The notes beneath the pieces were generated by a model. The model was not told the origin of the DNA. It did no database searches and worked only from the letters and a program-made list of their open reading frames with translations. From contig JAVCCE010000063.1 in the NCBI GenBank assembly GCA_030765645.1, forward strand, positions 62,001-126,000: a stretch of DNA of 64,000 nucleotides. The letters are read 5' to 3'. Of the stretch, positions 3-30,663 are shown piece by piece (the first letter of the stretch is position 1; every line of letters begins with the position of its first letter). Source of the DNA: Candidatus Hinthialibacter antarcticus (GTDB taxonomy: Bacteria > Hinthialibacterota > Hinthialibacteria > Hinthialibacterales > Hinthialibacteraceae). The translations under genes and the position numbers were made by a program.

Positions 3-1688
3 GCGACGATTTTTTATCGCAAAAATGGCGGCGCATTGCAAAAGTACGATCCTGCGGCGGATACGATTTACTTTTTCCGCAGCGGGACGCTGGAAGCGTA
101 TTCCGAATACAGCGGCATTCCCGGTCCGACGATTTCGTGGACGTATTCGGTCAATCAACCGTATGACAGTGACACCGATTACGACGGCGTCCCTGATTTT
201 GTCGAAGAGGCGGTCGGGCTTGATCCGCTCAATTTTGTTGCGGATTCTGATGATGACGGCTGGCTGGATATTCATGAACTCGTCCGCGAGACCGACCCGC
301 TTGACGACAGTGAAAGGCCGGATGATTCCGATGCGCCTTCTGATGCTGAATTAGAGGTTGGAATCTTCGGCGACGGTTGGTCTGATTATGATGAACGACT
401 TCGAGGAACTGACAGCACTGACGCGGACGATTTCCCAAGCGTAATCGGTGTGGATACGCCGGAAGCCGTCTTGCCGTTTTCTGTGAATGAACCGTTTTTA
501 GAATCGGTGACGGGCGAGGCGAATTCAACCATTCGCATTGTGAATCTCGCTGGAACCGAAATCGCATCAACCACTTTGGGAACCGAGTCCGTTCGATTTT
601 CCGTTGAACGTTCCGGCATACTCGGAATGGTCGATTCAAACCAGCCTGAAGTTGTGCTGTTCACTTATGTTTCTAAAAAAGAAATCAACGTGAACATTGA
701 CGGCGACGAAACTATGACTGCGTCGGAGTGGACCAGCGCCTATCGCGACAACTTGGCTGCGAATATTTTTGAAATGCGTGATGAAAGCGTGATCGATGCT
801 GAATCGACCGCGAGCGTTCTTGCACTGTGTTATTTCATCGAAACGGAATTGTCGCTTGCGGCGCCGAATATTGTCTGGTCGGCGTCGGGTGCGCCGTCGC
901 TGGCGGATTTAGATATTCTTGAACAAACAGTCGATCTCGATGCGGCTTATGAAACCATTTCAGCCGCAATAAACGATACCGGCTTGGTTGATCTCGTGCA
1001 ATCTTATATTGATCTTGCGGAGTTGAATGATATTCGCGGCAACATGGTTGAGCAGATTGCCTGGATCCTTCATGGTTGGGTTCCGCCTGATGCTGGCAGC
1101 ATTGTCGCGACGAGCTCATCGACGCGCTTGCAGTCTGAATCAGCGCAACAGGCAGGCCCGTTTGCTTCCGTCCGGCAAGCGATGACAGACCTGTTTGAAA
1201 CCATTGAGCGCAAGCAGATCAAAGCAAACGGGACCATTACGTTGTATGATTCCCTCGGGCAGGCGCTGCCCAATGGCGAGTCAGACCAATTCGTCGCGGC
1301 GGTGGTTGCGTTCAGCCAGAATGGCGCATCAGTCGAGGCCGAACTCAATCTGCAAGGCGCGCCTGCGCCCGCATCCGGCGCCCAGGTGTATTTTGAAGGC
1401 GCCTATAGCGACGGGCCTGGCGCGGGCATTCGCCCATTGCGCATTGATGTTGAGTTGCTTAATGTCATTTCGTCATCGCGTTCGACCAACACGGTTGATT
1501 CAGACGGCAATCGACTGGTCGACCAATGGGAGCGCTTCTACTTTGGCGAAACGGGCGTTGATCCGTCGGGCGATGACGATAGCGACGGCTACACCAACGA
1601 ACAAGAGATGAACGGATTTTCTGACCCCACCGATTCCGGTTCGGTTCCATCGGGCGATGTTAGCGTTTTTGACTGGGCGATGTATTAA
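3..1688 (+). CDS. Secreted protein with DxDxDG (thrombospondin-3-like) repeats, 5' end outside window
   Basis: The reading frame is open to the left edge, so the N-terminus and any signal peptide are missing. About 560 residues are visible. Near the left end are Asp-rich calcium-binding-type repeats (DSDTDYDGVPDF, DSDDDGWLDI), and similar ones recur near the C-terminus (DSDGNRLVDQW, DDDSDGYTNEQE). These resemble thrombospondin type 3 or EF-hand-like loops that bind Ca2+ in extracellular proteins. The roughly 350 residues between them match no family I recognise. The protein ends VFDWAMY, which matches the V-x-x-W-[SA]-[LM]-Y end of two other secreted proteins in this window. A structural or adhesive extracellular role is inferred, and no enzymatic function is claimed. 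No terminator follows; the downstream gap is full of repeats. Confidence 0.75.
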   Translation, partial: ATIFYRKNGGALQKYDPAADTIYFFRSGTLEAYSEYSGIPGPTISWTYSVNQPYDSDTDYDGVPDFVEEAVGLDPLNFVADSDDDGWLDIHELVRETDPLDDSERPDDSDAPSDAELEVGIFGDGWSDYDERLRGTDSTDADDFPSVIGVDTPEAVLPFSVNEPFLESVTGEANSTIRIVNLAGTEIASTTLGTESVRFSVERSGILGMVDSNQPEVVLFTYVSKKEINVNIDGDETMTASEWTSAYRDNLAANIFEMRDESVIDAESTASVLALCYFIETELSLAAPNIVWSASGAPSLADLDILEQTVDLDAAYETISAAINDTGLVDLVQSYIDLAELNDIRGNMVEQIAWILHGWVPPDAGSIVATSSSTRLQSESAQQAGPFASVRQAMTDLFETIERKQIKANGTITLYDSLGQALPNGESDQFVAAVVAFSQNGASVEAELNLQGAPAPASGAQVYFEGAYSDGPGAGIRPLRIDVELLNVISSSRSTNTVDSDGNRLVDQWERFYFGETGVDPSGDDDSDGYTNEQEMNGFSDPTDSGSVPSGDVSVFDWAMY

Positions 1689-6670: not shown

Positions 6671-6974
6671 GGTTGGTTCCTTGTTGATTGAATCAATGGC
6701 TCTTCATTCTTTAGCGAATGGAATAATAAGTATGGTACCAAAATAATGGATGACTTCGAGCCCCGTTTGATCTCAAATAATCTTGCATGAAGACGGCATA
6801 GACGCCAAGCGCTTTCTTCTTTATGATTTATCATTGATTGTAAATGTGATTGTGTTGTTGATCTCGTCCCGTTTGAGTGCGTTTCATCCCGGAAAATGCG
6901 CTATTCATCACATAGTTAATGATTAAATGAAACCAATTTTACTAATGTTCCGACAAAACAAAAAACAAGAAAGA

Positions 6975-8840
6975 ATGGTTATGTACGGGGACTATCGATT
7001 TTACACATTCTTACTCGCAGCGCTGTTGACCCTAGGCTGTTCGACCGCAGGGAAATACCGCGAAAACGCAGACAAGACGGCTTTCAATATCATTGAGCAA
7101 AAGCAACATGAAGCGCTGGGACGTACGGAACCGTTTTCCGTTGAGCCTCCCGAAGTTACATTGCGCCGACAATTGTTGTTAGACCAGGATTTGCAATATT
7201 CAGGCCCTGCGTCGTTGAGCGCCAAAGACCTCGATGAAATCGAGCATTGGCCCAAAGATGACTATCTGAGTCCAGAAGATGAAAGCGGCGAGATCGAGAT
7301 TGCTCCAATCAGCGGCCCGTTGAAAATGACCTTGATTGAAGCATTACAGATCGCAGCGAAAAGCAGCCGTCAATATCAAAATGCAAAAGAAACGGTCTTT
7401 CGTTCCGCCTTGCGTTTAGACCTGGCTCGCGATCGGTATCGCAACACATTCAGCGGGGCGATGGATAGTACGTTGAGCGCTGATTTGAGCGGAAGCGAAA
7501 CCACCAGCGGCTCTGAGAACAGCGCAGTCGCCGGGCTGTCCCGCCAATTTATGAACGGCATCAGCCTGACAAGCCGCATCGGGCTAGACCTCGCCAAGTT
7601 GTTGAACCCATTTGATGAGTCATCGAGCAGTTTGTTTGCCGACGCTTCGATATCGATCCCGCTTCTGCGTGGTTCCGGCAAACATATCGTTGCGGAACCA
7701 CTGACTCAGGCCGAACGGGAAGTGGTATACGCGATCTATGATTTCGAGCGCTTCAAGCGTGAGTTCGCCGTTAATGTCGCCGTCAACTACTTATCTGTTT
7801 TGCAAGCCGCCGACCAAATTACAAACACCGAAGAGAACTATCGCGGAGTGGTCATGTCGACCCGTCGTACGCGCCGCCTGGGCGACGCCGGACAGATTGA
7901 CCCGGTTGATGTTGACTTGCAGATTCAAAATGAGTTCGTCGCCCGTGAACGCTGGATTCGCGCTGAAATTGCGTTTCAGCGAAGTTTGGATTCACTGAAA
8001 ATTCTTCTCGGCCTGCCGACGGACGCCGTAATTGAGTTAGACCGGAACGAGTTGGATTCACTGGCCGCTTCTGTCGAGCAGCGCATCCCGCGCCCGGAAC
8101 AACTAGAACTCGAAGAAGTCATTCCTCCTGCGGACGCGCCCGTGAATCTTATGCCGCCTTCAAAAGAATACGTTGGGCCGTATGAAATTGAAGAAAAACG
8201 CGCCATCGGATTGGCGCTGGAAAACCGGCTTGATTTGCGCATTCTTTTGGGCGAGGTCTATGATGCGCAGCGCTCTGTCGTCGTCGCCGCCGATAGGCTT
8301 AGAGCAGAATTTACGCTTTTGGGGAGCGCAAATATTGGCGAGGGAAGAAGCCTCGGCTCATCATCCCGCTCTGATAATTATGATCTGGATGTCGAAAAAG
8401 GCCGCTACAACGCTTTGTTGACGCTTGACCTTCCCATTGAACGTACGGCTGAGGTGGTATCCTACCGCGAGAGCATTCTTGGATTAGAGCAATCCGTGCG
8501 TAATTTACAAAACCTTGAAGACTCGATCAAACTGGATGTAAGAAACGCCTTGCGGAACCTCCAGCAAGTGCGCGAAAGTTTGCGCATTCAGGAGCAAGCT
8601 GAGGCGTTGTCCGCCCGCCGGGTCGCGATGACCGATTTGTTGTTAGAAGCGGGGCGCGTCGAAATTCGCGACTTGGTTTCAGCCAAAGAAGATTTGCTGA
8701 GTTCACAAAATTCGCTGACGGCCGCTCGCATTGATTACCGGATCACAGAATTAGAACTACAACGGGATTTGGGCCTCCTGCTCGTTGATGAAACTGGCTT
8801 ATGGAGCGAAATCCCTCCAGAGGAGTTGAGTGATGTCTAA
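6975..8840 (+). CDS. TolC-family outer-membrane efflux lipoprotein
   Basis: It is about 621 residues from the chosen ATG; an ATG at 6927 is possible but precedes the signal peptide by a polar stretch. The N-terminus FYTFLLAALLTLGCSTAGK is a lipoprotein signal with Cys in LTLGC. Two repeated halves contain the long alpha-helices and short strands of TolC/NodT channels. Visible TolC-like segments include MTLIEALQIAAKSS, VAVNYLSVLQAADQI, ENRLDLRILLGEVYDAQRSV and VRNALRNLQQVRESL. It would form the outer-membrane exit duct for the pump encoded by the next three genes. Its stop codon overlaps the next start by 8 bp. Confidence 0.88.
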   Translation: MVMYGDYRFYTFLLAALLTLGCSTAGKYRENADKTAFNIIEQKQHEALGRTEPFSVEPPEVTLRRQLLLDQDLQYSGPASLSAKDLDEIEHWPKDDYLSPEDESGEIEIAPISGPLKMTLIEALQIAAKSSRQYQNAKETVFRSALRLDLARDRYRNTFSGAMDSTLSADLSGSETTSGSENSAVAGLSRQFMNGISLTSRIGLDLAKLLNPFDESSSSLFADASISIPLLRGSGKHIVAEPLTQAEREVVYAIYDFERFKREFAVNVAVNYLSVLQAADQITNTEENYRGVVMSTRRTRRLGDAGQIDPVDVDLQIQNEFVARERWIRAEIAFQRSLDSLKILLGLPTDAVIELDRNELDSLAASVEQRIPRPEQLELEEVIPPADAPVNLMPPSKEYVGPYEIEEKRAIGLALENRLDLRILLGEVYDAQRSVVVAADRLRAEFTLLGSANIGEGRSLGSSSRSDNYDLDVEKGRYNALLTLDLPIERTAEVVSYRESILGLEQSVRNLQNLEDSIKLDVRNALRNLQQVRESLRIQEQAEALSARRVAMTDLLLEAGRVEIRDLVSAKEDLLSSQNSLTAARIDYRITELELQRDLGLLLVDETGLWSEIPPEELSDV

Positions 8841-10731
8841 ACACGGTCGCAATCAAGAAGGGTTCGTAAACCGTCCGTCCGTATGGTTGATGCTGATTGT
8901 ATCCTGCGTATTGGCCGTTGGCGGGTATATGGTTTTTTCATCACAATTGGCTGACAGCGAATCATTAAATTACCCCATCTATGATGTACAGCAGGGGCCG
9001 CTTACGATCAGCGAATCCGTTGCGGGAACCATTCAAGCGCGAGACAAAGTCGTGATTGTGAATGATCTCGAAGGCCAAAGCACCATCCTGTATCTGATTC
9101 CTGAAGGGACCAAAGTCAAAGAGGGCGAACTGCTGGTTGAATTAGATTCGAGCTCGCTGCAAGACAGTTTGGTCGATCAGTCGATTTCCGTACAAAACGC
9201 CGAAGCCTCCTACATCAATGCGCGCGAGAGCCTCGCCATTATCGAGAGCCAGTCGCAGAGTGATATTGACCAAGCGAAACTCGTTTTTGATTTTGCGGTG
9301 TTGGATTTGCAGAAATACAAAGAGGGAGAGTATCCCAAACTGCTGGATGAGCGCGAGAGCGAAATTAAACTCAAAGAAGAAGAACTGTCACAAGCAAAAG
9401 AAACCCTGCGGTGGTCAGAAGTCTTATTTAATGAGAAATATCTTTCGCAGACAGTCTTTCAAAAAGATGAACTGGCCGCTAATCGCAGCAAAATTCAATT
9501 GGATATGGCGAAGGGCGATTTGAAACTGTTAGAAGACTATGAATACAAACGCCAATTTGAACAATTAAGCAGCGACGTCAAGCAAGCCGAAATGGCGCTT
9601 GAACGAACCAAACGCCAAGCCAACGCCAGCATCGTGCAAGCGTCGGCTGAATTGCAAGCGAAGTTGTCTGAGTTTGACCGGCAAAAAGGCAAGTTGGAAA
9701 AATTAGAAGACCAGATTGTGAAAGCGAAAATATATGCGCCTCAAGAAGGCTTGGTGGTTTATGCAACCAGCGTTCGCCAACGGCGCTTTGGAAATGATGA
9801 ACCGCTGGAAGAAGGCCGCAATGTTCGGGAGCGTGAAGAACTTATTCATTTGCCGACAACCGCGTCTTATATATCCGAAGTTAAAATTCATGAATCTAGT
9901 TTGGAAAAAATAAATGTCGGTTTACCTGTCGTCATTACGATTGATGCGCTCCCGGGGAAAACCTACTACGGCCGAGTGAGCGTCATTGCGCCGCTGCCTG
10001 ATTCACAAAGTTTCTTTAGCAACCCGGACTTGAAAGTGTATAACTCGCAAATTCTGATCGACGGCAACGGCGAAGATTTGCGCAGCGGGATGGGTTGTCA
10101 GGCGGAAATCATCATTGCTCAATTCGAGAATACGACTTACATCCCGGTGCAAGCGGTGTTGAAAGTCGGCGATCAGCCAACCGTGTTTGTTATGAACGGA
10201 AATGAAATGGAGCAACGCGCCGTTGAAATCGGCCCCGATAACAATCGGCTCATCCAAATTGCCAGTGGATTGAAAGAAGGCGAAAAAGTGGTGCTGACGC
10301 CTCCGCTCGCTGCCGGGGAAGTAAACAACAAAGAGCGAAACCAGAAATTAATTGATATTCCTGAAATGGCAGAAATCACGCCTGCGCCGAGTCGAAGTGC
10401 GGAACGTCGAGATCCACAAGCGGGGCAGCAGGGAGGTCGCGGCGACGGCGCTCCGGCAGGTGGGCCTCCAGGCCCCGGCGCGAATGTTGGCGGACCGGGC
10501 GGCGGACAGCGACCTAATTTAAACCCGGAACAAGTGGAAGAGATGCGCAAACGGATTGAAAATATGTCGCCGGAAGAACGCGCAGCTATGCAGAAGCGTA
10601 TTCAACAAGGCCAGCAGGGCCAGCGCGGAGATGGTGAGCGAGGACAACGCGGCGGAGGCCAGGGCGGCGAAAGGCAGCGCGGCGCCGGCGGCGGACAAGA
10701 GCGTCAACCGCGTGAAGGCGAGAGCAATTGA
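8833..10731 (+). CDS. MacA/HlyD-type periplasmic adaptor with long Gly/Gln/Arg-rich tail
   Basis: The 632-residue protein starts at the ATG after GAGGAG (7 nt spacing) and overlaps the TolC-like gene. One N-terminal membrane segment (WLMLIVSCVLAVGGYMVF) is followed by a barrel/lipoyl strand (VAGTIQARDKVVIV...), a long coiled-coil hairpin (residues ~110-290, Lys/Glu/Gln-rich), the returning lipoyl half (AKIYAPQEGLVVYAT), and a beta-barrel domain (GKTYYGRVSVIAPL). This is the architecture of MacA-type adaptors. Unusually, the last ~115 residues are low complexity: GGPPGPGANVGGPGG, then a helix NPEQVEEMRKRIENMSPEER, then a GQQGQRGDGERGQRGG-like run. The tail's role is unknown. The gene ends in TGATG, shared with the ATPase gene. 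Confidence 0.88.
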   Translation: MSKHGRNQEGFVNRPSVWLMLIVSCVLAVGGYMVFSSQLADSESLNYPIYDVQQGPLTISESVAGTIQARDKVVIVNDLEGQSTILYLIPEGTKVKEGELLVELDSSSLQDSLVDQSISVQNAEASYINARESLAIIESQSQSDIDQAKLVFDFAVLDLQKYKEGEYPKLLDERESEIKLKEEELSQAKETLRWSEVLFNEKYLSQTVFQKDELAANRSKIQLDMAKGDLKLLEDYEYKRQFEQLSSDVKQAEMALERTKRQANASIVQASAELQAKLSEFDRQKGKLEKLEDQIVKAKIYAPQEGLVVYATSVRQRRFGNDEPLEEGRNVREREELIHLPTTASYISEVKIHESSLEKINVGLPVVITIDALPGKTYYGRVSVIAPLPDSQSFFSNPDLKVYNSQILIDGNGEDLRSGMGCQAEIIIAQFENTTYIPVQAVLKVGDQPTVFVMNGNEMEQRAVEIGPDNNRLIQIASGLKEGEKVVLTPPLAAGEVNNKERNQKLIDIPEMAEITPAPSRSAERRDPQAGQQGGRGDGAPAGGPPGPGANVGGPGGGQRPNLNPEQVEEMRKRIENMSPEERAAMQKRIQQGQQGQRGDGERGQRGGGQGGERQRGAGGGQERQPREGESN

Positions 10732-11435
10732 TGAATGCAACAGTGAGTAGCCAAGATGGGCTTGCGGCCCATTTAGAAGACGTGCACAAAATCTATATGA
10801 TGGGTACGCAAGAAGTCCGCGCGTTGGATGGCGTAACCATCTCTTTTGAAAAAGGTGAGTTTTGGGCGATTCTCGGCGCTAGCGGTTCGGGAAAAAGCAC
10901 CATGCTGAATCTGTTGGGCTGTCTCGACCGACCATCGCGCGGTAAGTATTTTCTTAGCGGGCATGACGTCAGTACATTGGATGATGATAGCCTGAGCGAT
11001 ATGCGCTTAACGCACCTTGGCTTCATTTTTCAGAGTTTTAACTTGATCCCTCAGTCTACCGTACAAGAAAATATAGAACTGCCTCTTTATTACAAAGGCT
11101 GGACGCCGGAAGCAAGCGCCGAACGGGCCCAATTCCTTGCTCAGAAAGTAGGATTGAGCGACCGCTTAGATCACCGCCCAATGGAACTCTCCGGCGGTCA
11201 ACAACAACGCGTTGCAGTTGCGCGGGCGTTGTCGAACGATCCTGCGATCTTGCTTGCGGATGAACCGACCGGGAATTTGGATTCATCGACCAGCGTTGAA
11301 ATTATGAAGATGTTGGCGGAACTGAACGAGCAAGGCAAAACAATCATTATGGTGACGCACGAACAAGATATCGCCGCCCATGCGCGTAAGCGTCTCTATA
11401 TGAAAGACGGTAGAATTGAACGCATTGAAGGATAA
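10731..11435 (+). CDS. MacB/LolD-type ABC transporter ATP-binding protein
   Basis: The 234-residue ATPase has Walker A GASGSGKST (residues ~49-57), a Q-loop FIFQSFNLIPQ, signature LSGGQQQR, Walker B AILLADEPTGNLD and a switch His in MVTHE. These features place it in the MacB/LolD/FtsE clade, which powers mechanotransmission-type FtsX-fold permeases rather than classical pumping. The ATG overlaps the preceding TGA by one base, so translation is probably coupled. The permease follows 6 bp later. In canonical MacB, ATPase and permease are one polypeptide; here they are separate genes, as in many other phyla. Confidence 0.95.
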   Translation: MNATVSSQDGLAAHLEDVHKIYMMGTQEVRALDGVTISFEKGEFWAILGASGSGKSTMLNLLGCLDRPSRGKYFLSGHDVSTLDDDSLSDMRLTHLGFIFQSFNLIPQSTVQENIELPLYYKGWTPEASAERAQFLAQKVGLSDRLDHRPMELSGGQQQRVAVARALSNDPAILLADEPTGNLDSSTSVEIMKMLAELNEQGKTIIMVTHEQDIAAHARKRLYMKDGRIERIEG

Positions 11436-11441
11436 TGAACC

Positions 11442-12713
11442 ATGTTGATTGACCGTTATATGCTCGAAATACAATTGGGCGTTAAAAATCTGTTGCTGCA
11501 TAAACTGCGTTCATTTTTGACGATGCTTGGCGTGGTCTTCGGCGTGGGAAGCGTTATCGCAATGCTTGCCGTTGGAGAAGGCGCCAGCAAGGAAGCGCTT
11601 GATCGGATCCGAAAACTGGGTAGCCATAACATCATTATTTCATCAGAGAAATCCGTCGAAGAAGAATCGTCAACCAATTCGCGCGGCGGGTTTTTAAGCG
11701 CCTATGGTTTGCTCTACGAAGATGAACGGCGCCTTTCCGAAAGTTTTCCGAGCGTCAGTAAAACGGTCCCGGTCAAAGTTGTGCGCCGGGAAGGGCGGCT
11801 TGGAATGCGCGCGATGGAACTTCGTATTATTGGGACGACGCCGAATTGGTTCGAACTGGTGCAGCGCCCTGTTGTCGCTGGGCGCATCATTGTTGACCGC
11901 GATTTTGAAACCAAAGCGAACGTCGTTGTGTTGACGGAACACGGCGTACGGAAACTGCTTGCGACAAGGAACACCGTCGGGCAGGCGGTTCGGTTGGGCG
12001 GTGAATATTTTGAAGTCATCGGGATCACTCAAAACGCGGGAATGATCGGCGGCGATATCCAAACTCCTGATCAGGAAATTGATGCGTATGTTCCTCTCAA
12101 TGTCGCGCGGGAGCGCTTTGGCGACATTTTCTCAAAACGGGTTGCGGGGTCGTCCACGCGCGAAAAGGTGGAACTTCATCAAATTATCGCCGAAGTTCGT
12201 TCCGTCGATGAAGTTGAACCTACTGCCGCTGGAATCGAAGCGATGTTGAAGCGGTTCCACAAAAAAGTTGATTATAAAATGAGCGTGCCATTGGCGTTGT
12301 TGCGCCAGGCGGAAGCGACAAAGCGCACGTTTAATATCGTTCTGGGTTCCATTGCAGGCATCAGTTTATTGGTCGGCGGAATCGGAATCATGAACATCAT
12401 GCTGGCGTCGGTTACAGAACGTACGCGCGAAATCGGCGTACGCCGCGCCATCGGCGCGAAGAAGAAACAAATTATATTTCAATTTCTAATTGAGACGGTT
12501 GTGCTTTCAACCACAGGCGGTTTGATCGGTATGGGTATTGGCATTTTGATTCCCTGGTTGATTACGTATTTCGCCGACATGCCGACCGTTGTGACATTTT
12601 ATAGCCTGTCTTTATCGCTGGGCATCAGTATGGGCGTCGGGATTTTATTTGGCATTTACCCCGCCATTCGCGCCGCCAATCTGGACCCCATCGTTGCGCT
12701 GCGGCACGAGTAA
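11442..12713 (+). CDS. MacB-type ABC permease (FtsX fold)
   Basis: The 423-residue protein has one membrane helix near the N-terminus (LRSFLTMLGVVFGVGSVIAML), then a large periplasmic MacB core domain (residues ~50-290), then three C-terminal helices (IVLGSIAGISLLVGGIGIMNIMLASV; TTGGLIGMGIGILIPWLI; SLSLGISMGVGILFGIYPA). The TERTREIGVRRAIGAKKKQI motif after the second helix is diagnostic of the MacB/FtsX coupling helix. With the preceding adaptor, ATPase and TolC-like channel it completes a tripartite efflux or export machine. The cargo is unknown. A strong hairpin terminator follows at 12764. Confidence 0.93.
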   Translation: MLIDRYMLEIQLGVKNLLLHKLRSFLTMLGVVFGVGSVIAMLAVGEGASKEALDRIRKLGSHNIIISSEKSVEEESSTNSRGGFLSAYGLLYEDERRLSESFPSVSKTVPVKVVRREGRLGMRAMELRIIGTTPNWFELVQRPVVAGRIIVDRDFETKANVVVLTEHGVRKLLATRNTVGQAVRLGGEYFEVIGITQNAGMIGGDIQTPDQEIDAYVPLNVARERFGDIFSKRVAGSSTREKVELHQIIAEVRSVDEVEPTAAGIEAMLKRFHKKVDYKMSVPLALLRQAEATKRTFNIVLGSIAGISLLVGGIGIMNIMLASVTERTREIGVRRAIGAKKKQIIFQFLIETVVLSTTGGLIGMGIGILIPWLITYFADMPTVVTFYSLSLSLGISMGVGILFGIYPAIRAANLDPIVALRHE

Positions 12714-15272: not shown

Positions 15273-15815
15273 ATGAAAAATGGTTTTACATTAATTGAAT
15301 TGCTCATCGTCGTCGCCATTATTGGAATTCTCGCAGCGATTGCTGTACCTAACTTTTTGAATGCGCAACTCAAAGCGCGCATCGCAGCCACCGAAGGCAA
15401 CATGAAAGCCATCGGTACTGCGCTTGAGATGTACTCGATTGATTACGGTAAGTATCCCAACACCTATCTGCCCGACTCCGTAACATTTATTAATCCGCGC
15501 ATCATCCGTTTTCGCCGATTGACTACGCCCGTCGCATATATGTCAGCGAGCGTACGCGACGTTTTCAATACAGTCGATTTTCAAGAAAACGCCGTCTACC
15601 CGTTCTGGGGACCCGACACGATGGACCATCGAAGGATGGGGACCTGGTTTGACGATCCATCAATGGCGACATATAAAAATCAAAAGGGCGGTTGGGCCAT
15701 CATGAGTTTTGGTCCCGACCTCGATTTTGAATCAACGGAAAAGCAATACTTGTTATGGTTTAATTTAACGAATGGATTAAACAGCGACGGTGACATTTAT
15801 CGCGTCGGCCCTTGA
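15273..15815 (+). CDS. Type II secretion/type IV pilus-like pseudopilin (1)
   Basis: The 180-residue protein starts at MKNGFTLIELLIVVAI, with a GGGGA ribosome site. The short leader MKNG followed by FTLIE is the prepilin peptidase site: cleavage after Gly and methylation of Phe. The next ~22 residues are the hydrophobic assembly helix. The C-terminal domain is GspG-like with the pattern MSFGPDLDFE...NGLNSDGDIYRVGP, closely shared with the second pseudopilin (28957). It is followed 49 bp later by a secreted LamG protein. It would be a filament subunit or an adaptor for secretion. Confidence 0.9.
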   Translation: MKNGFTLIELLIVVAIIGILAAIAVPNFLNAQLKARIAATEGNMKAIGTALEMYSIDYGKYPNTYLPDSVTFINPRIIRFRRLTTPVAYMSASVRDVFNTVDFQENAVYPFWGPDTMDHRRMGTWFDDPSMATYKNQKGGWAIMSFGPDLDFESTEKQYLLWFNLTNGLNSDGDIYRVGP

Positions 15816-15864: not shown

Positions 15865-17904
15865 ATGATGAAACCGTTTTATACTGCTTGTTCACTTTTA
15901 CTGCTCACATGCTTCGCGACCGCCTCTTGGTCTCAACTCGACGAATCAAAGTTAACCTGGAAACCCGACCGGGGCGTCTCACTGAACGGTTATAGCAATT
16001 ATTATGAAGTCGAACCGAGTTCAGACTTTGACGTATTTGCAATCACCGTCGAAGCCTGGGTGAAATTTCGCGACAACGGCGGTCAGCAACAAGTGGTCGG
16101 GCGCGGATCTGGCAGCCAGTTCTTCACCCATTACGCCAACAATGGAAACTACCGTTTTCTGGTTGAAAACGTCGGCGTCGATTACGGCCTCGCCGAAATT
16201 GAAGTCCCTCCGGTTGATACTTGGGTGCATATAACAGGAACCTATGATGAAAATATGGTTCGCCTGTATTACAACGGCGTATTGGTTGCAGAAACCGAAC
16301 ACCCCGGCGTAATGAACGGCGGCGACGTCCCTATTTTAATTGGAGCGCTTTCACCCGGTGAACGCCATCTCAATGGATTAATTGAAAACATTCGCATCTG
16401 GGACAAAAGCCTGTCGCAAGAAGAGATCGACCAACTACTCTCGACGGCGCCAACTGATGAAGATATTGATGCGATGAAGAGCAACGGCTTGGTTTCGTAT
16501 TGGAGTTCCAGCGCCTCATCCAACGGTGAATTGACGGATATGGCGGGCAACCATAATGCTGTTCTTAAAGAATTCACTCTGGATGAAAGTCAACTTTCGT
16601 TTAAGCCGGAAGGCGGTATTTCATTTGATGGAAAAAGTACTTACATTCAAATTGATGACGTTGCAGACTTCAATGTATCCGCGTTTTCCGCTGAGGTTTG
16701 GGTTTACTTTGACGCATCATTTCAAAATCAGGTTTTCATGAACCGCGGTGGCGCTCCATCTGACTTTACGTTTTACCTTTATGATCGCGTTCGCTTTTTG
16801 ACGCAAGATGCAAGCAGTTACAGCCACGCGAATGGCCTCGTTCCTCCAGCGAAGACTTGGGTTCATATTGTCGGGACATTATCGGAAGACGGAACCAAGC
16901 GGCTTTATTACAACGGCATCCTTCAACATGAAATCACCAGTTCTCCGAATCCAACGAACAATGACGATACGCTTTATCTTGGCGCACTAGAGCCGGGCAG
17001 CCGCCATCTCGACGGTCAAATGGAGAACATGCGCTTCTGGGGCAAAGCGTTGAGTGAAGAAGAAATTCTCGCTTTGCTGCAAACGCCTCCTGAAGAAGAA
17101 GACATCCCCGCGATGGTCAGCAATGGCTTGATCGCATATTGGGCGCTCCGGTCGGTAGACGGAACGACGATCGCAGACTTGAGCGGCAACGGTCACGACG
17201 GCGCGGTGAGCGCATTTGAAATTGATAAAAGCCATCTCACCTTTTCTCCAGGAGACGGCATTCATTTTGACGGCGCCAATACATACGCGCTCTATGAAGA
17301 TCCGACGCCGTTTGACATTGACCTCATCACCGTCGAAGCCTGGGTCAAACTCGCGCCTATTTTTCAACTGGTAGATATCGGCAATCGCAGCATCGTCAGC
17401 CGCGCAGGCCTCGATGTTAGTTTTTCATTATATGGCAGTAATTCCTTCGGCAACCGGCTGCACTTCCAGATGGGCCCGTTTGGCGACGCCGCAGCGCCCA
17501 TGCCGCCGTCGGATGATTGGATTCATGTTGCGGGAACCTACGACGAAACGACGCTCAACCTCTATTACAACGGCGTATTGGTTGATAGCGTCAATGCCCC
17601 CGGCATCATTGATTGGCCGGACGGCCCGGTTTTCTTCGGAGCGTTTTCGCCAACATCGAGTGTATTTGAAGGCTCAATGGACTACATTCGCATTTGGGAC
17701 CGCGCATTGTCTGAAAGCGAAATTCAAGAATTACTTGCGACCTCGCCAGCAGATGAAAATATCTCGCAAATGGCGCAAAACGGGCTAATCGCTTACTATT
17801 CATCCAGCGCAGCGACCGATGACATGCTTGAAGATTTGAGCGGTAACAATATCAACGCTTCGTTGATCGGGTTCTCACCCGTCGCCAACTGGAGCCTGTA
17901 TTAA
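15865..17904 (+). CDS. Secreted protein with three tandem LamG-type domains
   Basis: It is 679 residues from the ATG 6 nt after GGAGG; the ORF extends upstream into the pilin gene but without a ribosome site. The signal peptide MMKPFYTACSLLLLTCFATA is followed by three repeat units of about 215 residues. Each unit has a concanavalin-like LamG domain (F.G...Y, VEAWV, WVHITGTYD, LYYNGVLV, IGALSPG, IRIWDKSLSQEEI) and a tail of the form NGLIAYW...DLSGN. LamG folds bind glycans or proteins in the extracellular space. The protein ends VANWSLY, the shared V-x-x-W-[SA]-[LM]-Y motif. It has no catalytic domain. Its second unit resembles the LamG domain of the next gene more than its sister units. Confidence 0.87.
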   Translation: MMKPFYTACSLLLLTCFATASWSQLDESKLTWKPDRGVSLNGYSNYYEVEPSSDFDVFAITVEAWVKFRDNGGQQQVVGRGSGSQFFTHYANNGNYRFLVENVGVDYGLAEIEVPPVDTWVHITGTYDENMVRLYYNGVLVAETEHPGVMNGGDVPILIGALSPGERHLNGLIENIRIWDKSLSQEEIDQLLSTAPTDEDIDAMKSNGLVSYWSSSASSNGELTDMAGNHNAVLKEFTLDESQLSFKPEGGISFDGKSTYIQIDDVADFNVSAFSAEVWVYFDASFQNQVFMNRGGAPSDFTFYLYDRVRFLTQDASSYSHANGLVPPAKTWVHIVGTLSEDGTKRLYYNGILQHEITSSPNPTNNDDTLYLGALEPGSRHLDGQMENMRFWGKALSEEEILALLQTPPEEEDIPAMVSNGLIAYWALRSVDGTTIADLSGNGHDGAVSAFEIDKSHLTFSPGDGIHFDGANTYALYEDPTPFDIDLITVEAWVKLAPIFQLVDIGNRSIVSRAGLDVSFSLYGSNSFGNRLHFQMGPFGDAAAPMPPSDDWIHVAGTYDETTLNLYYNGVLVDSVNAPGIIDWPDGPVFFGAFSPTSSVFEGSMDYIRIWDRALSESEIQELLATSPADENISQMAQNGLIAYYSSSAATDDMLEDLSGNNINASLIGFSPVANWSLY

Positions 17905-28956: not shown

Positions 28957-29538
28957 ATGAAAAAGCATGTTGCAAACGGATTTACCTTGATTGAACTACT
29001 CATCGTCGTCGCCATCATTGGCATTTTAGCGGCGATTGCGGTTCCCAATTTTTTGAATGCGCAAATTCGGGCCAAGATTGCGGGCGTTCAAGCGGACATG
29101 AGAAATTTAGGCACGGCCATCGAAAGCTATCGGCTTGATTATAACAACGCGCCCCGCACTTGCGTTGAAGGGTTCAAAGACGGGCAATGCCAGGGCGGCC
29201 AGTTGACGCGCGCGCAACGGTTGGCCCAGTTGACCACGCCCATCTCATACATGTCGTCGGTTCCCGAAGATAAATTTAATACAGCAGTGCTTGAAGACGT
29301 CAGTACAGAATACATCAATACTTATCCCTATTGGGAACCTGGCTTCGCAGACACGTATCGCAATGAAAACGCCTTGGGGCGCCATTTTCCTGACCAACGG
29401 CATCCCAATAAACAGTGGGCGTTGATGAGTTACGGTCCCGACGGCGATTTTGAAGCCGCAGGCGGCGGCGACCTTGCGCCGTTTGAGGTGTCCAATGGCG
29501 TTTCATCCAATGGAGACATCATGCGGTTTGGCTTATAA
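28957..29538 (+). CDS. Type II secretion/type IV pilus-like pseudopilin (2)
   Basis: It is 193 residues from MKKHVANGFTLIELLIVVAI; the ORF extends far upstream but overlaps the FAD gene, and AAAGG precedes this ATG. Prepilin peptidase would cut after Gly in NG-FTLIE. The hydrophobic N-terminal helix and AVPNFLNAQIRAKI stretch are nearly the same as in the pseudopilin at 15273. The C-terminal pattern MSYGPDGDFE...NGVSSNGDIMRFGL is also shared. The middle of the protein differs strongly between the two. It is followed 63 bp later by another secreted protein with the W-S-L-Y end, the same arrangement as at 15273-17904. Confidence 0.9.
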   Translation: MKKHVANGFTLIELLIVVAIIGILAAIAVPNFLNAQIRAKIAGVQADMRNLGTAIESYRLDYNNAPRTCVEGFKDGQCQGGQLTRAQRLAQLTTPISYMSSVPEDKFNTAVLEDVSTEYINTYPYWEPGFADTYRNENALGRHFPDQRHPNKQWALMSYGPDGDFEAAGGGDLAPFEVSNGVSSNGDIMRFGL

Positions 29539-29601: not shown

Positions 29602-30663
29602 ATGGCAAGAAATTTATGGATGGTATTTTTCATTGGATTGGTTGCAACGGGGTTCGCGTACGCGCAAATGGAGCAGCCTTTCACGCCGGGCAATCTGGTT
29701 TTAGTCGATGCGGCGGATGATATGTTGATCGAGGTCGCTCTGCCTGGTTCGCCGGACGCAACCGAAGCGCAAGTTGTGCAAGTCATTCGTTGGGAACTGG
29801 GCGACACCAGCCGCCGTCGCCCCTTAGGCGTGACATTTGACCCAAATGGAACTTGCTATATTGGTCTGACCAGCGTTCCGACATCAGCGACCGAGGCGGT
29901 AGAGTTTCCTTCTGGCCGTGGTGAAATTCTGCGAATCTCATCAAACGGCGCCTTGGACTTTTTTATCTTAGACCCGGAAGTGACCAAAGGGACTTGGCTG
30001 AGTAGTTTCGCGCCGAATGAATTATTTTTGATGAGTAATGGTCCCAAACCTCCGTTTCCTTCGCACATGTTCCGTTATAGTTTTTCAGGGGGAGAAATCT
30101 CACAAATAACGCCATTCGACGTGACAGAAACGCCTCAAGGCAACGGCGACGGCGGCAGCGGAAAAGCGTTGATCTTGCCTGACGGCAGAATCTTGATTCC
30201 GAGTGAGACTGACTCGTGGATCAATATTTATAATGAATCAGGCGGCGCCGCAATTGATCAAATTCCGACGGAAAAAGCCTATCGCTCGCTGGCGTATCTC
30301 AAAGACTCTAATGAGATGTTGGCGATCCCGACCAGTAACAGTTCGGTTGACCGGATAGATATCGGCGGCAATATTCTTGGATCATTTGATTTTACCTTGG
30401 ACGGTCTCGGCGGCGTTTGGAACTTCACCTTAATTGATGATGGGTCTGAACGGTTTATCGCAACCAACCACAATGGACCGGCTGGTTCAAATAGCCAGAT
30501 ATTTATTTATGATTCATCTGAACTAGAAGACCTTCCGTTCCCGCAGATTTTACAAATTGTGGGCTTGGAAAACTTTGGCGACGCTGATGGCTTTGCGAAC
30601 CAATTGTTCGATCACGCCATTGTACCTGAACCATCAAATGTCAACATCTGGTCTTTGTATTAA
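29602..30663 (+). CDS. Secreted protein of unknown function, probable beta-propeller, W-S-L-Y end
   Basis: It is 353 residues from the ATG 8 nt after GGAGG. The signal peptide is MARNLWMVFFIGLVATGFAYA. Repeated short beta-rich segments (GVTFDPNGTCYIGL, GEILRISSNGALDFF, ALILPDGRILIPSE, VDRIDIGGNILGSFDF, SQIFIYDSSEL) suggest a six- or seven-bladed propeller of the NHL/SMP-30 kind, but no catalytic signature is recognisable. The end VPEPSNVNIWSLY contains the V-x-x-W-[SA]-[LM]-Y motif. VPEPS resembles the start of a PEP-CTERM tag, but the following membrane helix and Arg cluster are absent. Its pilin-like neighbour and shared tail suggest a common export route. Confidence 0.75.
   Translation: MARNLWMVFFIGLVATGFAYAQMEQPFTPGNLVLVDAADDMLIEVALPGSPDATEAQVVQVIRWELGDTSRRRPLGVTFDPNGTCYIGLTSVPTSATEAVEFPSGRGEILRISSNGALDFFILDPEVTKGTWLSSFAPNELFLMSNGPKPPFPSHMFRYSFSGGEISQITPFDVTETPQGNGDGGSGKALILPDGRILIPSETDSWINIYNESGGAAIDQIPTEKAYRSLAYLKDSNEMLAIPTSNSSVDRIDIGGNILGSFDFTLDGLGGVWNFTLIDDGSERFIATNHNGPAGSNSQIFIYDSSELEDLPFPQILQIVGLENFGDADGFANQLFDHAIVPEPSNVNIWSLY

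Follow-up and report, generated by a model that had tools for sequence, protein, structure and literature searches.

A nine-residue C-terminal tail on unrelated exported proteins of Hinthialibacterota and one family outside the phylum: a candidate sorting tag

We have analyzed a short C-terminal tail that ends dozens of otherwise unrelated exported proteins in one bacterial genome (5.15 Mb, 96% complete) and that, as far as can be judged from sequence, is very probably a functional tag. Three of its carriers lie in the 64,000-nucleotide stretch of DNA considered here, referred to as the window (G000:C63:62001-126000). It is abundant, with clean statistics; none of the Pfam and NCBIfam models reported for its carriers describes it, and the order of bacteria in which it is richest has no exosortase. 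We lean towards the view that it represents an undescribed class of sorting signal, in which a nine-residue, helix-less tag would route, in two candidate phyla, dozens of Sec-exported proteins per genome by way of an unknown receptor, possibly one derived from type II secretion with cargo-paired pseudopilins. The features of the window on which the analysis rests are the following.

1665 to 1688, plus strand: C-terminal tag VFDWAMY and stop codon
3 to 1688, plus strand: tagged protein 2, with Ca-binding-like repeats and no Pfam family; its 5' end lies beyond the window
15273 to 15815, plus strand: GspG-like pseudopilin, a stand-alone gene lying just upstream of tagged protein 1 (Pfam N_methyl, E=3.2e-8; T2SSG, E=1.9e-4)
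15865 to 17904, plus strand: tagged protein 1, consisting of signal peptide MMKPFYTACSLLLLTCFATASWS, three Laminin_G_3 domains (Pfam PF13385, E=8.9e-78) and the tag
17881 to 17904, plus strand: C-terminal tag VANWSLY and stop codon, the focal case, ending the triple-LamG exported protein
28957 to 29538, plus strand: GspG-like pseudopilin, a stand-alone gene lying just upstream of tagged protein 3 (Pfam N_methyl, E=2.3e-8)
29602 to 30663, plus strand: tagged protein 3, a signal peptide and beta-propeller, with the tag kept in orthologs of 5 other genomes
30640 to 30663, plus strand: C-terminal tag VNIWSLY and stop codon

The tails read ...SVFDWAMY*, ...PVANWSLY* and ...NVNIWSLY*, so the three C-termini were correctly reported in the first-pass annotation; its start for the focal tag (17884) falls one codon late, at the A, and the seven codons with their stop occupy 17881 to 17904. 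The start of tagged protein 1 (15865) was chosen by its signal peptide. The same annotation recognized signal peptides in two of the three proteins, and the one cut by the window edge has one as well: its full ORF on contig C63 encodes 710 aa (L140:7557-9686) and starts MRRCRMNCVNRIALLLTLTLAPMVCAFAQ. The trinucleotide TCA directly follows the TAA stop of all three window tags (at 1689, 17905 and 30664); it follows the stop in 5 of 38 tagged genes as against 3 of 286 in the background, and is probably incidental. Elsewhere in the window (6927 to 12713), genes for an OEP-type outer membrane channel, an HlyD-like adaptor and a MacB/FtsX-like permease stand in a row and resemble a MacAB-TolC exporter.

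The tail was defined from 119 non-redundant examples taken from the window's own genome, its relatives and family f17, which lies outside the phylum. It comprises nine residues, [TSAV]-x-[VI]-x-[DEN]-W-[SAE..]-[LMV]-[YHF]-stop, at or very near the C-terminus. W at -4 is present in all 119 by selection of the set. Position -9 is T, S, A or V in 90% of the tails, -7 is V in 106 and I in 10, -5 is D, E or N in 78, and -2 is L in 112. The last residue is Y in 105, H in 7 and F in 6, with Q also possible, and position -3, mostly S, A or E, is nearly free (G, D, N, T and others occur). The pattern V-x-x-W-[SA]-[LM]-Y proposed earlier is thus real, but it captures only a subset of the full form, which varies more at -3 and -1 and is constrained at -9 and -5 too. 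The motif is almost always exactly terminal; rare variants add one to three residues after it (VTEWELHE, VPNWSLFK, IEDWLLHIEP). The last of these ends an LTD-type protein (L159 4362-8196) whose start is related to that of tagged carriers, and is apparently the tag plus three residues. At another locus (L043, 5864 and 5937) the tag closes each member of a convergent gene pair separated by 70 bp (AIQQWSLY and EVGAWSVY).

The genome was surveyed by pattern searches and sequence stretches, with the background taken from 400 kb of random stretches and not from the whole genome; signal peptides were called by a simple home-made rule, not by SignalP. A search for W-x-x-Y-stop separates two kinds of match: nearly all those in long frames have a valine or isoleucine at -7 and a leucine, valine or methionine at -2, and those in short frames do not. 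When the pattern was broadened and full genes were fetched, at least 38 proteins of 249 to 1761 residues were found to end in [VILM]-x-x-W-x-[LMV]-[YHFQ], a lower bound because the search of the genome did not cover endings in F or Q. The enrichment among exported proteins that the first-pass annotation had suggested looking for was found: 36 of the 38 have a signal peptide, compared with 109 of 331 proteins from unselected stretches (Fisher p=4e-14). Of the two without one, that at L032 begins close to the end of its contig and that at L043 has an uncertain 5' end. In unselected ORFs totalling 130,793 residues (the window and 20 random stretches of 20 kb) V..W.L[YH] occurs three times, always C-terminally and never internally, and a broader form is seen at four C-termini where composition predicts 0.03. 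This expectation, together with the reversed-pattern counts given below, rules out a chance origin of the tail.

The carriers have little else in common. BLASTP of the 123 residues preceding the tail places the 38 proteins in 32 groups, and their Pfam domains include LamG, LTD, CotH, CBM9, FG-GAP, subtilase, di-haem peroxidase, LVIVD and NHL; in the NCBIfam scan one of them shows a 'choice-of-anchor X' domain. Homology across the last domain, which would have refuted the earlier reading of the motif as a tag, was not found, and with 32 clusters among 38 proteins it is ruled out as the cause of the shared ending. A repeat at the DNA level is ruled out as well, since the 21-mers that encode the tail differ in 38 of 38 cases and the DNA past the stop codon is not conserved among tagged genes. 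The varied encodings, with Leu and Val codons mixed, argue for selection on protein rather than DNA; taken with the unrelated carriers and the unconserved 3' DNA, they indicate that the tail is selected as protein, independently of the domain that precedes it. Enrichment and unrelated carriers together support the original suggestion that the motif behaves like a sorting or secretion tag, the sorting function itself being inferred.

The distribution of the tail was followed by counting V-x-x-W-x-L-[YH]-stop on forward and reverse strands against the reversed pattern. The phylum (OLB16, or Hinthialibacterota) has been described from 21 genomes of 3.4 to 7.5 Mb (PMC11382960); 14 genomes represent it in the set that could be searched. 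The window's own genome gave 28 matches to 6 reversed, its family mates 25 to 8, 46 to 5, 36 to 4, 33 to 5 and 27 to 5, and other genomes of the same order 12 to 4, 23 to 3 and 14 to 5, so that the order as a whole holds between 12 and 46 motif matches per genome against 3 to 8 reversed. Other families of the class gave 4 to 6, 5 to 6, 12 to 7, 9 to 7 and 17 to 5, and even the weak families hold genuine cases (EVASWRLY, VENWSLY, VQNWSLY). The stricter V-x-x-W-[SA]-L-Y-stop occurs 39 times in the 14 genomes, against once for its reverse. Outside the phylum, counts are at background level in almost all of 276 genomes. Only two stand out, with 15 against 2 and 8 against 1, and both belong to family f17; one of them (G025) is a single contig of 3,289,105 bases. 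The f17 carriers are long, mostly have a signal peptide and end, for example, in AVNEWSLY or SVGDWSLY. A third lineage suggested by genome G111 was put down to chance: only one of the fetched matches ends an ORF of at least 30 codons, and that ORF has 44 codons. As recognized by pattern, the tag is restricted to the window's phylum and one family outside it, apparently two separate phylum-level lineages.

Relatives of the propeller at 29602 to 30663 were found in five other genomes of its family, with 32-65% identity in the alignment. All those that reach the C-terminus keep the W (W350) and the L (L352), while the residues just before vary; their ends are WSLY, WALY, WSLQ, WPLH, WELY, WDLF, WELF, WDLH and WELHE. 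Foldseek confirmed the beta-propeller, and an AlphaFold2 model of it has a mean pLDDT of 87.7, falling below 50 in the last seven residues. A second AlphaFold2 model, of the last domain of another carrier, is poor (mean pLDDT 65) and shows the tail at about 75 with a short strand, so that, on such models, exposure of the tail cannot be taken as settled for all carriers.

Candidate machinery is present but does not discriminate. GspD-type secretins occur in all 16 genomes tested (the 14 of the phylum and both of f17), and co-distribution of tag and machinery can therefore not be demonstrated. A type II-like cluster with GspD, F, H, J, K and M lies on C63 downstream of the window (GspC was outside the model set), and further such clusters, identified by gene order only, are on C8 and C15. 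Two things expected of type II cargo are found here, the Sec signal peptide (36 of 38) and the machinery (GspD, F, H, J, K, M). On C15 a GspD-type secretin appears to be split into two adjacent genes (L276 6391-8991); the same apparent split is seen among the matches in G002 and G004-G008, where the chained match contains an in-frame stop in several genera from both families of the order. A probable Tad/Flp pilus cluster (RcpC/CpaB by Pfam) occupies L280 1055-13121 (G000:C64); the tagged gene at L280 15090-16949 is some 2 kb away.

The two pseudopilins of the window belong to one paralog family and adjoin both intact tagged genes on the same strand. The family has the signature GFTLIELLIVVAIIGILAAIAVPNFLNAQ ... 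GPD ... SNG..S.GDI.RFGP and is also found at L138, L129, L245, L251 and other loci. Stand-alone GspG-like pseudopilins number about 6 per 400 kb and are scattered as single genes, often beside genes for secreted proteins. A same-strand pseudopilin neighbours 7 of 39 tagged genes, compared with 5 of 153 genes for other signal-peptide proteins (p=0.003). In the relatives, pseudopilins lie 36-152 nt downstream of nine tagged genes, but the relatives alone (9 of 59 against 1 of 30, p=0.09) do not reach significance, and f17 offers a single tagged gene with a pseudopilin in its neighbourhood, which lies on the opposite strand. For these reasons, and since the association was found while exploring, it must be regarded as a lead to the mechanism and not as proof.

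Since the tail matches no described sorting tag, it probably marks its carriers for an unknown sorting or secretion step. The signal peptides point to Sec export as the first step; receptor and route are inferred. The cargo would be exported by Sec and fold in the periplasm, where the flexible nonapeptide would bind a receptor mainly through W at -4 and L at -2. A periplasmic or outer-membrane apparatus might read the exposed end of the protein, its last ~9 residues ([TSAV]-x-V-x-[DEN]-W-x-L-Y), and route the folded cargo onward. The most likely such apparatus would be a type II secretion-like machine that exports the cargo or displays it at the surface, and the stand-alone pseudopilins beside a minority of tagged genes could serve as cargo-specific filament subunits or adaptors. 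This proposal as a whole, a post-Sec sorting tag read on a type II-like route with pseudopilins in those roles, is plausible but falls short of being probable; that type II secretion and pseudopilins provide the route is likewise tentative.

A less likely reading, though one that retains some force, is that the tail steers no secretion and is a non-covalent anchoring or assembly tag that docks to a receptor in the outer membrane, S-layer or matrix, following the logic of a dockerin in nine residues. Many carriers are of surface type (LamG, LTD, CBM9, CotH, FG-GAP), the 'choice-of-anchor' domain occurs on one of them, and the tail is flexible on the propeller model. No candidate receptor for the tag was identified, however, and the pseudopilin adjacency favours an export filament over a static receptor.

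It is improbable that the tail marks its carriers for trimming or quality control by an HtrA/DegS/Prc-like enzyme of the periplasm, either a PDZ protease or one that processes C-termini. Aromatic or hydrophobic C-termini are typical PDZ ligands, and the strictly terminal position seen in almost all of the collected tails would suit such a ligand. The usual PDZ pair is the last and third-last residue, whereas here the most conserved residues are W at -4 and L at -2 and the third-last residue is nearly free; the few variants that extend one to three residues past the motif also fit poorly.

Slightly weaker again is the possibility of a structural cap, either a convergent hydrophobic last strand of beta-rich secreted proteins or an outer-membrane beta-signal. 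The short strand in the second, poor model speaks for it. The carriers, however, include non-beta enzymes (di-haem MauG-type, S8 protease), and on the propeller model the tail is disordered. A general folding solution would not be expected to stay at background in nearly all of the 276 outside genomes. A beta-signal recognized by BAM alternates, but the hydrophobic spacing here (-1, -2, -4, -7) does not, and the carriers are soluble-domain proteins.

A type IX-like or other C-terminal-domain secretion route can be given very little credence. The logic is the same, since diverse cargo carries a Sec signal peptide together with a C-terminal signal that is not a membrane segment, as for the sorting domains of TIGR04183 and its relatives. 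Type IX signals are whole folded domains, however, not nine residues, and the families listed by the NCBIfam scan of the 38 carriers include no tail model of the TIGR04183/TIGR04131 type. SprA_N (PF14349) had no match in the 16 genomes, which is weak evidence since the control genomes were silent too. Least credible of all is a degenerate PEP-CTERM or other exosortase, sortase or rhombosortase tail, for which VPEPS or VPVP just ahead of the tag in some carriers and the resemblance of 'W-A-L' to the start of some PEP-CTERM helices could be cited, against the lack of any helix or basic cluster and an exosortase (PF09721) that is absent from G000-G009, including all motif-rich genomes of families f1 and f2, and present only in G010-G013. 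Identity with the exosortase/PEP-CTERM system is ruled out on these grounds, a divergent enzyme aside.

The sorting reading that we prefer places the tail beside several known systems. C-terminal tags have repeatedly led to new machinery, as with sortase, exosortase, rhombosortase and type IX secretion, the tail being recognized first; the present one offers a concrete handle on the sorting of exported proteins in these uncultured bacteria. Type II secretion is similar in its Sec-dependent folded cargo, and type II-like clusters are present here with GspG-like pseudopilin genes adjoining some tagged genes. To our knowledge, though, type II cargo generally has no linear tag, and a short shared C-terminal tag is no known feature of it; the present pseudopilins stand alone, and what ties them to the tag is a statistical association. 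If that link holds, it bears on how type II systems recognize their cargo, which is an open question. Surface proteins with a WxL domain also show a conserved W-x-L close to their C-terminal end, but that domain is large, folded and typical of Gram-positive bacteria, and the Pfam scan of the 38 carriers reported none. A literature search did not find WSLY as a word, papers with DWSLY-type strings were unrelated, and further searches brought up nothing of relevance.

Two further parallels are tripartite tags. PEP-CTERM (Haft et al. 2006, PMC1569441) is likewise a short C-terminal homology on many unrelated signal-peptide proteins of one genome, in diderms, but it has a Pro-Glu-Pro motif, a transmembrane helix, a basic cluster and a co-occurring exosortase (EpsH), none of which accompanies the present tail. 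GlyGly-CTERM, the tag of the rhombosortase system (Haft & Varghese 2011, PMC3237569), is another many-to-one signal on unrelated signal-peptide proteins, and consists of motif, helix and basic cluster, unlike nine residues that end at the stop. No LPXTG-like or SGGS-like motif with helix and basic cluster occurs in the collected tails. The absence of a membrane helix and basic cluster noted in the first-pass annotation is thereby borne out, as is the dissimilarity to known C-terminal membrane tags that it drew from this, which holds for LPXTG, PEP-CTERM and GlyGly-CTERM. We know of no described class of tag made up of nine residues alone, with neither a membrane helix nor a basic cluster nor a folded domain. 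C-terminal sorting tags are a known kind of signal; a tail that lacks all three of these elements is an undescribed one.
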